From: Polyangia bacterium
Lineage (GTDB): Bacteria; Myxococcota_A; Polyangia; Fen-1088
DNA length: 64,000 bases
Direction of reading: 5' to 3'
Assembly (NCBI GenBank): GCA_036268875.1
Contig: DATATI010000029.1
Coordinates: 1-64,000 of the forward strand
Every line of letters begins with the position of its first letter. Within the stretch, counting starts at the first letter, position 1. The notes below the pieces were generated by a model. That model was not told the origin of the DNA. It saw only the letters and a program-made list of their open reading frames with translations, and ran no database searches. Position numbers and translations under genes: made by a program. This document shows, piece after piece, positions 7,164 to 13,601 of this stretch.

Positions 7164-8654
7164 CTACTTTTTCGCTGATGGCAGCACCGACGTCAGGCGC
7201 AGCGACACGGTCAGCCCTTCCAGCTGGTAGTGCGGACGAAGGAAGAACTTCGAGGTGTAATACCCCGGGTTCCCTTCGACCGACTCGACAACCACCTCGG
7301 CGGCAGCCAGGGGCTTGCGCGCCTTGACGTCCTCGCTGGAGTGCTGGGGATCGCCGTCCACGTACTGCAGGATCCAGCTCTGCAGCCAGTTCTGCATGTC
7401 ATCGCGTTCCTTGAACGATCCGATCTTGTCGCGAACGATGCACTTGAGATAGTGCGCGAAGCGGCAGGTCGCGAACAGATACGGCAACCGTGCGGCCAGG
7501 TTGGCGTTGGCGGTGGCGTCGGGGTCGTCGTATGTCCCCGGTTTTTGCAGCGACTGCGCGCCGATGAACGCGGCGAAATCCGAGTTCTTCTTGTGAATGA
7601 GCGGCATGAAGCCGTTCTTGGCCAGCTCGGCCTCGCGGCGATCGCTGATGGCGATCTCCGTCGGGCACTTCATGTCCACACCGCCGTCGTCGGTGGGGAA
7701 GGTATGGGTGGGCAATCCCTCGACCGAGCCGCCTGATTCGATGCCGCGGATGCGCGAGCACCAACCGTAGATCTTGAACGACCGGTTGATGTTCACCGCC
7801 ATGGCGTAGGCCGCGTTGGCCCAGGTGAACTTGCTGCTGTCGGCGGCGGCCGTGTCCTCTTCGAAGTCGAACTCCTCGACCGGGTTGGTCTTGGCGCCAT
7901 AGGGGCGCCGGGCCAGAAAGCGCGGCATGGTCAGGCCGAGATAGCGAGCGTCGTCCGACTCGCGCAGCGACCGCCAACCGGCGTACTCCGGTGTGCTGAA
8001 GATCTTGGTCAGGTCGCGCGGGTTGGAAAGCTCGCTCCAAGATTCCATCTGGAACAAGCCCGGCGCGGTGCCCGAGATGAACGGCGCGTGGATGGCCGCC
8101 GCGATCTTCGACACCTCGCCCAGGAGCTCGACGTCGGGCGCGTTGTGGTCGAAGTAGTAATCGCCCACCAAGCATCCGTAGGGCTCGCCACCCAGCTGGC
8201 CGAACTCTTCTTCATAGAGGCGCTTGAACACCGGGCTTTGATCCCAGGCCGCGCCCTTGAACTTGCGCAGGGTCTTGTGCAGCTCTTTCTTCGAGATGTT
8301 CATGACCCGGATCTTCAGCATTTCATCGGTCTCGGTGTTGTTCACCAAGTGATGCAGGCCACGCCAGGCGCTTTCCAGTTGCTGAAAGTCCGGGTGATGG
8401 ACGATGGCGTTGATCTGCTGGCTCATCTTCTTGTCGATCTCGGCGATCATGGCGTTGATCGACTCGACGACGTCAGAACCGATGACGGTGGTCTTTTCCA
8501 GCGCTTGCTGGGCCAGGGTGCGAACGGCCGATTCAACTTCTTCGCGCGCCCGATCCGACTGTGGCTTGAACTGCTTTTGCAGCAGCGAGGCAAACTCGCT
8601 GGTCTCGCCGGTGGCGCCGGCGGCGGCTTCTTTGCTTTGCTCTAGCTCGGCCAT
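7164..8654 (-). CDS. tssC: T6SS sheath large subunit TssC (VipB)
   Basis: TssC pairs with TssB to build the contractile sheath around the Hcp tube. The 496-residue product matches the family throughout: an N-terminal helical region rich in Glu/Lys, the core LESAWRGLHHLV, the conserved GGEPYGCLVGDYYFDH, the stretch YLGLTMPRFLARRPYG, the sequence SRIRGIESGGSVEGLPTHTF, and a C-terminal LRPHYQLEGLTVSLRL that forms the interlocking sheath strand. The length is normal. It starts directly after tssB (two intervening bases) and is followed by a 79-bp gap holding a possible hcp promoter. Confidence 0.97.
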   Translation of the reverse strand: MAELEQSKEAAAGATGETSEFASLLQKQFKPQSDRAREEVESAVRTLAQQALEKTTVIGSDVVESINAMIAEIDKKMSQQINAIVHHPDFQQLESAWRGLHHLVNNTETDEMLKIRVMNISKKELHKTLRKFKGAAWDQSPVFKRLYEEEFGQLGGEPYGCLVGDYYFDHNAPDVELLGEVSKIAAAIHAPFISGTAPGLFQMESWSELSNPRDLTKIFSTPEYAGWRSLRESDDARYLGLTMPRFLARRPYGAKTNPVEEFDFEEDTAAADSSKFTWANAAYAMAVNINRSFKIYGWCSRIRGIESGGSVEGLPTHTFPTDDGGVDMKCPTEIAISDRREAELAKNGFMPLIHKKNSDFAAFIGAQSLQKPGTYDDPDATANANLAARLPYLFATCRFAHYLKCIVRDKIGSFKERDDMQNWLQSWILQYVDGDPQHSSEDVKARKPLAAAEVVVESVEGNPGYYTSKFFLRPHYQLEGLTVSLRLTSVLPSAKK

Positions 8655-8656
8655 GA

Positions 8657-9187
8657 CTACTTGCCGTCCTTATCGGCGGGGGCGTCGCCGGGTTGCTCAG
8701 GTTTCGGCGCCGAGGCCAAAGTTTTTAGCAGGGTCGGATCGCGCATGACCTTGCCGATGAGCTCCTCGGCCCCACTCTTGCCATCCATATAAGTGACCAG
8801 GTTGGTCAGTTGCTGACGCGCTTCCAAAAGTTGGTTCAACGCCCCCACCTTCCGCGCCACCGCGGCCGGGGAGAAGTCGTCCATATTTTCAAACGTGATA
8901 TCCAGGTTCAAATTCCCCTCGCCGGTCAGCGTGTTGGGGACCTGGAAAGCCACCCGCGGCTTCATCGCCTTCAGCCGCTCGTCGAAGTTATCCACCGAAA
9001 TTTCCAAGAATTTTCGGTCAGTGACGGCCGGCAAGGCCTCGGCGGGTTTTCCCGACAAGTCGGACATCACGCCCATGACGAACGGCAGCTGGACCTTCTT
9101 CTGTGCGCCGTAAAGCTCGACGTCATATTCGATCTGAACCCGGGGTGCTCTGTTTCGCGCAATGAATTTTTGGCTGCTGCTGCTCAT
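8657..9187 (-). CDS. tssB: T6SS sheath small subunit TssB (VipA)
   Basis: TssB forms the sheath heterodimer with TssC. The 176-residue product contains the family signature VQLPFVMGVMSDLSGKP near the start, then FDERLKAMKPRVAFQVPNT and a segment on the pattern DITFENMDDFSPAAVARKVG, followed by the ClpV-interacting helical C-terminal region and a Pro/Asp/Lys-rich tail. An AGGAGG sequence lies about 11 bp before the ATG, with AGGTGG closer. It is separated from tssA by 39 bp and runs directly into tssC. Confidence 0.97.
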   Translation of the reverse strand: MSSSSQKFIARNRAPRVQIEYDVELYGAQKKVQLPFVMGVMSDLSGKPAEALPAVTDRKFLEISVDNFDERLKAMKPRVAFQVPNTLTGEGNLNLDITFENMDDFSPAAVARKVGALNQLLEARQQLTNLVTYMDGKSGAEELIGKVMRDPTLLKTLASAPKPEQPGDAPADKDGK

Positions 9188-9226
9188 GTGACCACCTGCC
9201 TCCTGTGAATGAGAACGCCGAGTTCG

Positions 9227-10261
9227 CTATTCGGTTCTCCCTTTCAGAACCTCGACCTGAGAAACGGCTTCGGGGACCAACTCGCGGACGATATCGATGA
9301 AGCTCATCATGACCAGCTTCTTGCAGCGGGCCATGAAAAGCGGAACGGGACTGGAAGGTTCGTACCGGTCGTAATAGGCGGAGATCTTGTCCAGCGCGCG
9401 GATGACATCCTCGCGCGAGCCGATCTCGCCGGGCAGGCCGCCACCACGGTTTGCCACGGGACCACCTCCTTCGTTACCGGCGTCGACGCCGTCGACCATC
9501 GCGGCGCCGGCGGCGGCCGGCGCGCGCAGCGCCAGCTTGGCGCCCAGAAATTGGCTGGCCTTGCGCACCAACGGCAACAACTTGCTGTAGTTCACCCCGC
9601 TGGACTCGCCGACCTGCGCGGCCACCGACGCCTCCAGCGCGACCAGCGCGTCGCCAGCGGCGCGCGCGGCCACGGCAAGGGCCTGCAATTCGCCGAGGTC
9701 GCAATCCAGCGCCGCCGCGTCCAGCGACGCCATGGTCGGTCCTTGGGTCCCGGCGGCGAGGGCGTCGCCCGAGGCGATCTCCAGATCCTTCAGCGTGAAT
9801 CGACCGAGAGTCCGCGACGCGACCAACACCGTGGCGCGCACGCCGGAGATGGTCTCGCCGTCCGCCATGCTGTTGAGGATGTTCACCCGCATGGTCGGAT
9901 CGTTGTCGTCGTCGGGATCGAGCCGCGGGTAGATCCCCGGCCATTGGTGGTCGACGAAATCGCGCAGCACCGACAGACCCTGGGAAAAGCCGTTCCAGCC
10001 GCTGGTGCGCAGCAACGCTTTGGTCAGATGGGCGGCGACGCGCAGATCTTTGCTGCGACCCAGAAGTTCCAGCGCCTGCCTCTGCACCGATTTCCAGTCG
10101 GGCTCCTCGGCGGGTACGATGGTGCTGCCGATCTGTTGTTCTGGTTTCCCTTGTCCAAGACGTTCGAGTTCGCCAAACGCGACGTCGTATTCAAGATCGC
10201 TGCCGCACGGATCGGCCCCCGCGATGGGAGCGAGGATCGTATCAAGGACAAGGGTAGCCAT
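9227..10261 (-). CDS. tssA: T6SS cap/baseplate protein TssA
   Basis: TssA coordinates tube and sheath growth, either at the distal cap or at the baseplate depending on class. The 344-residue product has the N-terminal ImpA domain, seen in PIAGADPCGSDLEYDVAF near residue 12 and LLGRSKDLRVAAHLTKALLR near 65, followed by GLSVLRDFVDHQWPGIYPRLD. The C-terminal part (about 150-344) is Ala-rich and helical and ends with a region including ISAYYDRYEPSSPVPLFMAR, the common TssA C-terminal signature. It is the first gene of the operon, with a good promoter match 24-52 bp upstream; no clear Shine-Dalgarno sequence is visible before the ATG. Confidence 0.93.
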   Translation of the reverse strand: MATLVLDTILAPIAGADPCGSDLEYDVAFGELERLGQGKPEQQIGSTIVPAEEPDWKSVQRQALELLGRSKDLRVAAHLTKALLRTSGWNGFSQGLSVLRDFVDHQWPGIYPRLDPDDDNDPTMRVNILNSMADGETISGVRATVLVASRTLGRFTLKDLEIASGDALAAGTQGPTMASLDAAALDCDLGELQALAVAARAAGDALVALEASVAAQVGESSGVNYSKLLPLVRKASQFLGAKLALRAPAAAGAAMVDGVDAGNEGGGPVANRGGGLPGEIGSREDVIRALDKISAYYDRYEPSSPVPLFMARCKKLVMMSFIDIVRELVPEAVSQVEVLKGRTE

Positions 10262-10451: not shown

Positions 10452-11522
10452 ATGAAGCTCGAGGTCAAAATCAAAACCCCCGCCGGGGGCCCGGACAAGA
10501 CGTTGCACTTTTCGCAGTCACCCGTGCGCATCGGCCGGAACCAGTTGAACGACATCTCGCTGCAGGACCCGTTCGTCTCCGAATGGCACGGCATCATTCG
10601 TTTCGATCAGAAGAGCCTGGCGTACTTTGACCTCGGTTCGACCAACGGCACCGTGCTGGAAGGCAAGCGCCTGACCAAGAACGTGGCCATGGAGCTGTCC
10701 GACAGCTCGCGCCTGCAGCTGGGATTGCTGGAATTGACCGCCATCCGAATCGATGACGAACCGCCGGTGCCGCAACCGCAGCCGCGGCGGTCGCAAAGCG
10801 GCCCGCACAAGACCATGGCCTGGGGATACACGCCGCCCGGCCCCGGAGCGCCGGGTTCGGTCGCCCCGCACGGCGACGGCTGGACGCCGGGCGCCCCCGC
10901 GCCCAGCGGCAGCATTGATGTCGATCTCGGCCTCACCCCACCGCCCGGCGCCAATCCGCTCGCCGCGGCCTTGCGAGGCGCGTCCGCTGCCAGCGCGCCC
11001 AGCGGCGACGCTGCCCTGTTGATCCGTCAAGGCAAGCTGCTGGAGGCGTTCGGCGAAGCCTTCATCGGTCTGCGCAAAGGCTACGAACAGTTCGGCGCCG
11101 AGGTCGGCGTGCGCACCATCAACGGCGCCACGCCGCTGCACCGGGCCCGCACCCGCGCCGAGTTGATGGATTACTTGCTGGCGCCCGGCGTGGATCCGGA
11201 AGCGGCGGCGCGCGACCTCATCGCCATCTTCGCCGACTTCGGCATCCACCACATCGCCATGATGGAAGGCGTGACCGAGAGCGTGCGGACGTTGCTTCAA
11301 GGGTTGGATCCGCGCGCCAACGATCTGGACGACGCCGCCCCGCGCTTGTTCTCCGGCGCCAAGGTGCGAAACCAGTGGAAGGCGTACCTGGAGAGGTTCG
11401 AGCAGATCGCCGCCGACGACAACGAGCTGCACGGCGCCGTCTTCGGCGAGGAATTCGCCCGCGCCTACGCCAGTGTCACCGTCGGTGATGACGGCGGCAA
11501 ACGCCCTGAAGGCGACGAGTGA
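10452..11522 (+). CDS. tagH: T6SS-associated FHA domain protein (TagH/Fha-like)
   Basis: FHA proteins in T6SS loci bind phosphothreonine and relay the PpkA/PppA kinase-phosphatase switch that triggers assembly. In this 356-residue protein the FHA domain spans about residues 1-100, with the expected Gly-Arg at 28-29, SEWH (Ser-x-x-His) at 43-46 and the STNGT motif at 63-67. A Pro/Gly-rich linker (about 100-190) leads to a C-terminal helical domain (195-345) with an LHRARTRAELMDYLLAPG pattern, as in type VI FHA proteins. It is divergent from tssA and overlaps the next gene by 4 bp (GTGA). No partner kinase or phosphatase lies in the window; it may be beyond the left edge. Confidence 0.85.
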   Translation: MKLEVKIKTPAGGPDKTLHFSQSPVRIGRNQLNDISLQDPFVSEWHGIIRFDQKSLAYFDLGSTNGTVLEGKRLTKNVAMELSDSSRLQLGLLELTAIRIDDEPPVPQPQPRRSQSGPHKTMAWGYTPPGPGAPGSVAPHGDGWTPGAPAPSGSIDVDLGLTPPPGANPLAAALRGASAASAPSGDAALLIRQGKLLEAFGEAFIGLRKGYEQFGAEVGVRTINGATPLHRARTRAELMDYLLAPGVDPEAAARDLIAIFADFGIHHIAMMEGVTESVRTLLQGLDPRANDLDDAAPRLFSGAKVRNQWKAYLERFEQIAADDNELHGAVFGEEFARAYASVTVGDDGGKRPEGDE

Positions 11523-12487
11523 GCAACGCCGACGGGCGCGGCGGGCAACCGGCGGCTGCAACGTGCGTTCCGTTCGCCGTCGCCGCGCTGGCCTTGTTCG
11601 CTGCCACCTGCGCCAGCGGCACGCCGCCGCCCACTGTTCCCAAACCGATCTGCAGCATCGACACCACCGTCGGCATGGACAAGGCGCCGCGCGATCGGGT
11701 CTTCCCGCCGGCCTACTGGTTCGTGCTGCTGGTCGAGGGCTATCAGTCATCAGGCGTGATCACCCGGCCGTCGAAAGACTGTCGCGGCTTTCCTTTGCGT
11801 CAGGACGGCGAGGGTTGCAGCGGCGAATTGCCGGCCGAGCTGGCGCCGGTGCCATTGACCCAGCGTGATCTGGTGGTGGTGAGCCTGGGCGACGCGCGCC
11901 GCCTGGTCTGGGTGATCACCGACCGCCTGCCCGACGGTCAAGGCCAGGGCCCCATCGCCATCGCCGAGATTGGCGTGCACGGCGTGGGCGTGCGCGCCAT
12001 CGGCACGCTGCGTACGTATCCTGAAAATGTGGCCCTGCGCCTGGAGCGCGTCGGCGCCAGCACCGTGCTGGTGGCGGAAGGCGAAAAATGCGCCGGCACC
12101 GGCGCCGACTGCGAGCGGGCCGTGCGCTTGTTGCCGCTGCTGGGCGATCGCTTCGTCAGCAAGCCGATCGTCGACGACCACAACGCGTGCCTTGGCAGCG
12201 CGTTCTTTCCCGTGCGCACCAAAGGCGGCATCGGCCACCGCACCAGCACCAACTATGAACTGGAAGCGGCCCTGGTTTTTGGACCCGACTCGATCACCGT
12301 GCGCGAACAGCTGGCCATCTCCGATGGGCACGGCTCGTCGACGACCGAGCAATCCGGCGGGGCGTTCGTCACCCGCGTGCAGGCCGACCGCACCTTGACC
12401 ATCAACGGCGGCACCGTCGTCGCGAACGGACCGTCACTGCTGGATCGCTGGCTGGCTCAGCACGGCGGCGCGGTCGATCGGCACTAA
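11519..12487 (+). CDS. Probable secreted protein, cotranscribed with FHA gene
   Basis: Family not recognised. The 322-residue product starts with GTG overlapping the FHA stop (GTGA), which implies translational coupling. Residues 14-32 are hydrophobic (FAVAALALFAATC), consistent with a signal peptide; Cys32 could be a lipid-modification site but the preceding residues AAT are a poor lipobox. The mature part contains scattered cysteines (about 34, 44, 88, 100, 192, 199, 225) that may form disulfides, and many beta-forming stretches such as DLVVVSLGDARRLVWVITD. By position it may be an envelope component or regulator of the divergent T6SS, but this is inference from neighbourhood only. Confidence 0.65.
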   Translation: MSNADGRGGQPAAATCVPFAVAALALFAATCASGTPPPTVPKPICSIDTTVGMDKAPRDRVFPPAYWFVLLVEGYQSSGVITRPSKDCRGFPLRQDGEGCSGELPAELAPVPLTQRDLVVVSLGDARRLVWVITDRLPDGQGQGPIAIAEIGVHGVGVRAIGTLRTYPENVALRLERVGASTVLVAEGEKCAGTGADCERAVRLLPLLGDRFVSKPIVDDHNACLGSAFFPVRTKGGIGHRTSTNYELEAALVFGPDSITVREQLAISDGHGSSTTEQSGGAFVTRVQADRTLTINGGTVVANGPSLLDRWLAQHGGAVDRH

Positions 12488-12536: not shown

Positions 12537-12915
12537 CTAGACCGCAATCAGGTTGAAGCGAGATCGAAGGGTGAATCGGTAACGTAACCGAGGCTGCACG
12601 CGCGGCTTGGACGTGGCGACAAATTGGACGGCCTGAGCCGCTTGGCGGCTTCCCGCCCGCGGAAGGCCTCTGTCTACGCCACCTCTCCCATCAAGGCTTT
12701 CGTCGCCGCATGGCATCCGTTGGGCCTTCGAACCGGGGAGGCCTTCCGCCGTCGGGAAGCCTTGTTCCGGAGCCGGTCGGATGCCATGCGGCGACGAAAG
12801 CAGCCAAGCGGCCCACCACGCCGAATTTGTCGCGCCGTCCAAGCCGCGCGTCCAGCCTCGGTTACCGTTCGTCCCGTGTCGCCTCCGAGATCGGGTCAAT
12901 TCGATAGCGGTCTAG
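12537..12915. repeat. 379-bp nested inverted-repeat element
   Basis: The 424-bp gap between two convergent genes is filled by a large imperfect palindrome. Its ends are CTAGACCGC (12537-12545) and GCGGTCTAG (12907-12915), a perfect 9-bp inverted match. Inside are a 42-bp arm pair, 12584-12625 with 12824-12865 (39 of 42 match as inverted repeats), a short pair 12637-12646 with 12803-12812, and two interleaved 24-bp pairs: B 12647-12670 with 12738-12761 (22 of 24) and C 12696-12719 with 12778-12801 (24 of 24). The order B-C-B'-C' cannot fold as a simple hairpin. Short open frames inside are not credible genes. The right end supplies the TAG stop of the LON-domain gene. It could be a MITE-like element, a structured RNA or an unusual bidirectional terminator. 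Confidence 0.8.
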
Positions 12916-13601
12916 TTCGTTGTCTTCGAAGAGCTGATCCGCCCGTTCATCGCGACTACCTCGGCCGAAACGCGTTCGATGCGGCGAAGAACGTCGCGCG
13001 TCTCCAGCAGCGACTGGCGTTGGGTTGAATCGACAACAAGCGCCGCGGCCAGCACGTCGACCAGCTCGGACGAGGTTTCTTGGGCCGCCACCACCTGGCG
13101 CAAAAGCTCGCCGCCTTCGGGGATGGACTCGGCCAGGTGATTGACCAACGCGCGCAGTGACTGGTCGGCGTCACGCAGCTCGCGCTGGTCGATGGTGGGA
13201 AGATCGGGCAGCGAGGCGGCGCTGATCAACCGATACGGGCGATCGGAGATCAGTTCTTCTTCGATGCGGATGCGGGCCCGGCCGCGAACCACCAGGTTGA
13301 AGCGCCCGTCGACCAGCTCGTGTGCCATCACCACCTCGCCGATCCCGGCCACCGGAAGCACCGACGGCTTTTCGACCAGATCCAGATCCTGCCCGGGCGT
13401 GATCAAGCCGATGGCCAGAAATCTTTGCCCTGCCAACACGTCGCGGGCCATGGCCCGATAGCGTTCTTCGAAGATGTGCAGCGGCAAAAGCGCGTGCGGA
13501 AACAGCACCACGTTCGGCAGCGGGAACATGGGCAGCCGGCCCAGCGCCTCTTGAAAACTGCGGTCCTGCGCCAGCGGGCCGGCGTCGAAGTCGCTACCCA
13601 A
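12912..13601 (-). CDS. Stand-alone LON N-terminal domain protein
   Basis: The 229-residue product matches the substrate-binding N-terminal domain of Lon proteases (PF02190) with no AAA+ or protease part. Recognisable signatures are LPMFPLPNVVLFPHALLPLH (about 23-42), the following IFEERYRAM, and VMAHELVDGRFNLVVRGRAR. Such proteins are common in bacteria and their function is poorly defined. The gene is last in a four-gene overlapping set: its ATG lies inside the SDR 3' end with an 8-bp overlap. Its TAG stop is part of the CTAG terminus of the inverted-repeat element next to it, so the last residues may have been altered by insertion of that element. Confidence 0.9.
   Translation of the reverse strand: MGSDFDAGPLAQDRSFQEALGRLPMFPLPNVVLFPHALLPLHIFEERYRAMARDVLAGQRFLAIGLITPGQDLDLVEKPSVLPVAGIGEVVMAHELVDGRFNLVVRGRARIRIEEELISDRPYRLISAASLPDLPTIDQRELRDADQSLRALVNHLAESIPEGGELLRQVVAAQETSSELVDVLAAALVVDSTQRQSLLETRDVLRRIERVSAEVVAMNGRISSSKTTN

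Follow-up and report, generated by a model that had tools for sequence, protein, structure and literature searches.

Bacterial MITEs typically have terminal inverted repeats and a terminal TA (PMC2229807). The Correia elements and other bacterial MITEs share these features, along with many intergenic copies (PMC2229807), with an element found between two convergent genes of a Polyangia bacterium, within the 64,000-nucleotide stretch of DNA analysed here (the window). By description, they are mostly shorter than 200 bp and A+T-rich, whereas this element is 373 bp long with 65% GC. RUP (the repeat unit of pneumococcus) is likewise short and non-autonomous, with terminal inverted repeats, TA-containing targets and a proposed IS630-type mobilisation (PMC2229807). 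However, it is only 107 bp long and its partner, IS630-Spn1, is known, while the Polyangia element is fully fold-back and G+C-rich, and no partner was found.

The target resembles that of IS630 from Shigella sonnei, whose preferred insertion at the TA in 5'-CTAG-3' is attributed to Tenzen and Ohtsubo (1991) in PMC2170065; both IS630 and ISY100 duplicate the TA (PMC2170065). In contrast to the element, IS630 encodes its own transposase, and the GACCGC... ends are so far without match to IS630-family elements. MITEPsy1 of Pseudomonas syringae is likewise short, has inverted ends and sits at CTAG (PMC3189936), although it is 100 bp long, with a 4-bp duplication, a probable IS5-type parent and unrelated ends. 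Finally, REP/REPIN sequences with their RAYT are similar to the elements of two relatives (G252 and G253) in being palindromic and present in high copy number. In comparison, the element has TA on both sides in its own genome and in three others, and RAYT was not found in its own genome or in G252.

We read the feature as a single copy of a MITE-type mobile element (probability about 0.8), probably representing a new family of non-autonomous fold-back MITEs with an IS630/Tc1-mariner type of target. A mobilising enzyme of the IS630 kind is favored, the basis for this being the TA-in-CTAG target together with the duplication rather than a transposase.

Structure of the element and its host site

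The features of the locus, with coordinates in the window, are as follows:

11519–12487, plus strand: convergent neighbour gene, ending 50 bp short of the element; no Pfam match
12537–12540, no strand: left CTAG, consisting of the target C, the duplicated TA (12538–12539) and the element's first base G (12540)
12540–12912, plus strand: non-autonomous element, 373 bp, GACCGC...GCGGTC, 65% GC, without protein domain; from copies and alignment
12540–12566, plus strand: left terminal inverted repeat, conserved part GACCGCAATCAGGTTGAAGCGAGATCG; end motif common to elements of other genera
12584–12651, plus strand: outer arm A, 68 nt, 85% complementarity to A'
12647–12670, plus strand: inner arm B, 22/24 with B'
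12696–12719, plus strand: inner arm C, 24/24 with C'
12738–12761, plus strand: inner arm B'
12778–12801, plus strand: inner arm C'
12798–12865, plus strand: outer arm A', pairing with A
12888–12912, minus strand: right terminal inverted repeat, reading GACCGCTATCGAATTGACCCGATCT on this strand
12912–12915, no strand: right CTAG, consisting of the element's last base C, the duplicated TA (12913–12914) and the target G; it holds the TAG stop of the LON gene (minus strand)
12912–13601, minus strand: gene with a LON substrate-binding domain (PF02190, E 1.3e-32), ending in the target CTAG

An earlier reading of this DNA from its letters only (the sequence-only reading) had described a 379-bp feature with perfect 9-bp ends, and these (CTAGACCGC/GCGGTCTAG) indeed match at 9/9 positions. 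The mobile unit was refined to 12540–12912, whereby the outer CTA/TAG letters are the target and its duplication. Both ends of the 373-bp unit carry terminal inverted repeats with the common motif GACCGC-ATC---TTGA. The 42-bp outer arm pair of that reading (12584–12625 versus 12824–12865, 39/42) turned out to be a segment of the longer 68-nt arm (85%), while its inner pairs in the order B-C-B'-C' were found as described, with C perfect (24/24) and B at 22/24. There are only two short ORFs within the element, and neither matched Pfam, leaving no transposase coding capacity.

On the left side A adjoins B, and on the right A' adjoins C' (INTERLEAVING). Two alternative folds result. In one, A-C pairs with C'-A', which leaves B as a bulge and places B' in the loop; in the other, A-B pairs with B'-A', the loop then containing C and the bulge C'. 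The predicted fold of the feature reaches -238 kcal/mol, versus -157 ± 5 for shuffles (z = -17); the other strand (z -13) and the fold as DNA (z -14) likewise lie far outside the shuffle range. The B-C-B'-C' arrangement is common to all three complete copies in the genome. Since the substitutions among copies break pairs (see below), there is no sign that these repeats were selected for folding as RNA; the interleaving of the inner arms seems to be a by-product of the element's origin rather than a selected RNA structure. A fusion of two fold-back elements sharing ends is our guess for this origin.

According to the sequence-only reading, the right end supplies the TAG stop of the LON-domain gene. 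A TAG is present there; since it lies inside the CTAG target, the stop probably existed before the insertion and was not supplied by the element. The best matches to the LON protein had 60–64% identity and came from Myxococcota/Myxococcales MAGs, and no empty site was found among the matches in genome contigs. Elsewhere in the window (7164–10261), three adjacent minus-strand ORFs are, as we read them by eye, presumably type VI secretion parts (TssC-, TssB- and TssA-like).

Copies in the same genome

A search with the 379-bp query in the organism's own genome, assembled in 95 contigs (6.15 Mb), revealed three complete copies and additional ones at contig ends, 97–100% identical, in at least six distinct places: C29 (the window), C70/C78, C14, C66, C74 and C34/C88. 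The copies on C74, C34, C88 and C78 are cut by contig ends. C78 and C70 share the left flank and were therefore counted once, C34 and C88 hold the two ends of a single insertion, and C66 and C74 differ in sequence and were counted separately. By alignment, the flanks of the copies are mutually unrelated. Recent spread has brought the element to at least six places, and the earlier suggestions of a MITE-like element and of a novel repeat family are both supported: the copies are nearly identical at unrelated sites, with terminal inverted repeats, a TA/CTAG target and one insertion within a gene, and the end motif recurs in relatives. The contig breaks within the element suggest that this repeat limited the assembly, and the element explains why one repeat recurs in this genome and why its assembly breaks at several points.

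A tyrosine-recombinase gene is split by the C34/C88 copy. When the two flanks are joined across a single CTAG, the domain end (NIRFHHLRHTTASLLLMNGADLA...GHLDPRTTTEFYGHL) is restored; the match to Phage_integrase (PF00589, E 1.7e-4) falls short of the curated cut-off, and just past the joint there are apparently two small compensating frame irregularities. Other copies lie at gene ends. On C29, C14 and C66, a neighbouring reading frame has its TAG stop within the CTAG site; the C70 left flank, read directly, likewise shows a frame ending in TAG at CTAG; and the C74 copy lies four bases past a stop codon. The stop held by the target on C66 belongs to a MATCAP-domain gene (PF08014, E 2.4e-113; L004:336-1838, minus strand); the domain family, found here in a bacterium, is named after microtubule-associated tyrosine carboxypeptidase.

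Target site and duplication

CTAG was present at every copy end lying within a contig, two copies reading CTAGGCC and CTAGGTC just inside. The tetranucleotide is about tenfold depleted in the window (20 seen versus 192 expected from base composition) and makes up 3.3% of its TA sites (20/607), so that its presence at every copy reflects a target preference and not chance. Because CTAG is rare here and often overlaps TAG stops, most copies, that in the window's convergent gap among them, lie at gene ends. Such a build-up at TAG stops and in convergent gaps, following from the CTAG preference, could be misread as a regulatory function.

A search for target duplications gave a positive result: TA (in CTAG) flanks both sides of all complete copies in the own genome, and one empty site was inferred by joining the C34 and C88 flanks. 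These copies alone, with CTAG on both flanks, are compatible with a 2-bp TA or a 4-bp CTAG duplication alike. In three other genomes (G132, G135 and G136), those complete copies whose target is not CTAG have TTAG on one side and CTAG on the other, or CTAG with CTAA or CTAC. Variation is thus confined to the outer base of the flanks, the terminal G/C of the element being constant, which fits TA duplication. In one G136 copy (L204), TA is missing from one side. Among the complete copies of G252/G253, TA was present on both sides in 4/36 and on one side in 21/36, most having it on one side or neither; this sample is partly biased, as some loci were picked for a CTAG end. During in vitro transposition of ISY100, TA on one side only was seen in a small minority of products (3/39; PMC2170065).

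Related elements in other genomes

With the whole 379-bp query, nothing convincing was found in 58 relatives, the sole weak match being 50 bp at 79% in G037; what the relatives share is the end motif, not the whole element. The motif CTAGACCGCNATCNNNTTGA was counted with at most one mismatch in 318 genomes of the class, the reversed motif serving as a control. There were 25 occurrences in G252, 22 in G253, 12 in G135, 8 in G136 and 6 in G132, with none of the control in these genomes. A relaxed end count gave 481 in G252 and 507 in G253 (control 3 and 2), equivalent to about 240–250 elements each if the relaxed ends are halved, the halving being an estimate.

The terminal motif GACCGC--TC---TTGA thus recurs in these five genomes, on fold-back elements that differ among themselves. 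Those of G132 measure about 225 bp and those of G252/G253 about 123 bp, while G135 has a 179-bp element and G136 has elements of 158 bp and above. The 123-bp element of G252 and G253 (genomes of 4.2–4.8 Mb; stretches L205–L222) is exemplified by L210:7173-7296. One end type spans several families of one class, from about 6 to about 250 copies per genome. Outside these genomes, a plasmid search gave 46-bp matches only, at the E-value limit and within an IclR regulator gene; a relative's element had no match among plasmids, and the phage search with the element had none either. Two end-pattern matches on viral contigs had no partner end in inverted orientation and were regarded as chance. A literature text search for the end sequence returned unrelated papers only.

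Mobilising enzyme

A transposase made elsewhere would move the gene-less element by its terminal inverted repeats. A DDE transposase of the IS630/Tc1-mariner kind probably cuts at GACCGC/GCGGTC and pastes the element into the TA of CTAG, the TA being thereby duplicated; the long complementary arms give the fold-back form. An enzyme binding GACCGCTTTCA--TTGA would be new as the partner of these elements.

No transposase with the element's ends was found at PF13358, PF01609, PF13546 or PF01797 loci of these incomplete assemblies. A single IS630-type gene is present in the own genome (C50; L095:30-1170, near the contig end), and its ends, TA-GCAAAAGTCC, are different; the element's ends were not found as flanking ends at the IS630-type loci checked in this genome and G136. 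DDE_3 had no match in G252, G253, G135, G132 and G003. The end motif was also absent from two PF01609-matching genes of the own genome, which we take to be IS4-like, and from a decayed DDE_5 (IS701-type) fragment, which lies on C78 and scored under the cut-off for its family. The PF01609 and Y1 loci in motif-carrying relatives lacked the ends as well, and inward-facing ends 0.6–3 kb apart formed weak pairs only. Y1-type genes are present in G132, G135, G136, G003 and G253, and the Y1 transposase (PF01797) was not found in the own genome or G252.

Alternative explanations

The element could instead be a MITE of an IS5-family (or IS701-type) element duplicating four bases, CTAG or YTAR, in the manner of MITEPsy1, which duplicates 4 nt at its CTAG or YTAA targets (PMC3189936). 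This would agree with the CTAG on either side of every own-genome copy and with the decayed DDE_5 fragment on C78; yet the two flanking tetranucleotides in the relatives differ, always in the outer base, pointing to TA and not to four bases, and the PF01609 loci of the own genome and the relatives are without such ends. We regard this alternative as unlikely. Spreading of a REP/REPIN-like palindrome by a RAYT (Y1) transposase would account for the palindromic form, the very high copy number and the one-sided or absent duplication in G252/G253, and Y1-type genes do occur in five of the genomes. This explanation is nevertheless very unlikely: beside the lack of a detected Y1 transposase in the own genome and G252, no RAYT locus with a flanking motif was seen, and the own copies are 373 bp long with TA on both sides, one of them within a gene.

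A regulatory RNA had also been proposed by the sequence-only reading, with the inner pairs either forming a pseudoknot or excluding each other. The interleaved repeats are real, without sign of pseudoknot or switch action. A riboswitch-like two-state RNA (B-B' versus C-C') or a bidirectional terminator selected in convergent gaps would be in line with the strong predicted fold on both strands, the mutually exclusive pairs and the gene ends that form most insertion sites. But the copies are at unrelated loci, one inside a gene, the gene-end bias is explained by CTAG at stop codons, and Rfam gave sub-threshold matches only, none above the curated score. Moreover, the covariation expected of an RNA was not observed: among own-copy substitutions at paired positions of the minimum-energy fold, 13 pairs were broken, 1 was kept and 0 were compensated, and two changes in the C14 copy break the otherwise perfect C pair. 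Two alignment columns of the G252/G253 elements swap C-G/G-C between subfamilies. These swaps were not taken as RNA selection, because a few rows of the alignment are in doubtful orientation and arms can be exchanged by recombination in fold-back DNA. An RNA function is hence extremely unlikely. A chance or decayed single structure, for which only the absence of a good match to the full 379 bp in 58 relatives would speak, is practically negligible, being refuted by the repeated copies, the fold (z -17) and an end motif common to several genera.

Wider distribution of the ends

The MITE-type element is ordinary in kind; it merits recording because its end motif is class-wide, two relatives have very many copies, its fold-back form is G+C-rich and no transposase was found. 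A rather doubtful, tentative extension is that G+C-rich fold-back elements of Myxococcota with these ends form a class-wide superfamily, with about 240–250 copies in some genomes and without a recognisable transposase of the tested kinds. If true, this would imply an unrecognised mobilising enzyme or an odd insertion mode leaving a one-sided TA.

Two further structures were encountered among the relatives. A G136 fold-back element (L182:212-376) with the ends TAGACCGACCTCACGTTAAGTTGA lies directly after an IS630-type transposase fragment, and a solo 31-bp palindrome, CTAGACCGCTTTCAAATCGAAAGCGGTCTAG (L159:1891-1921), looks like two fused element ends without interior.
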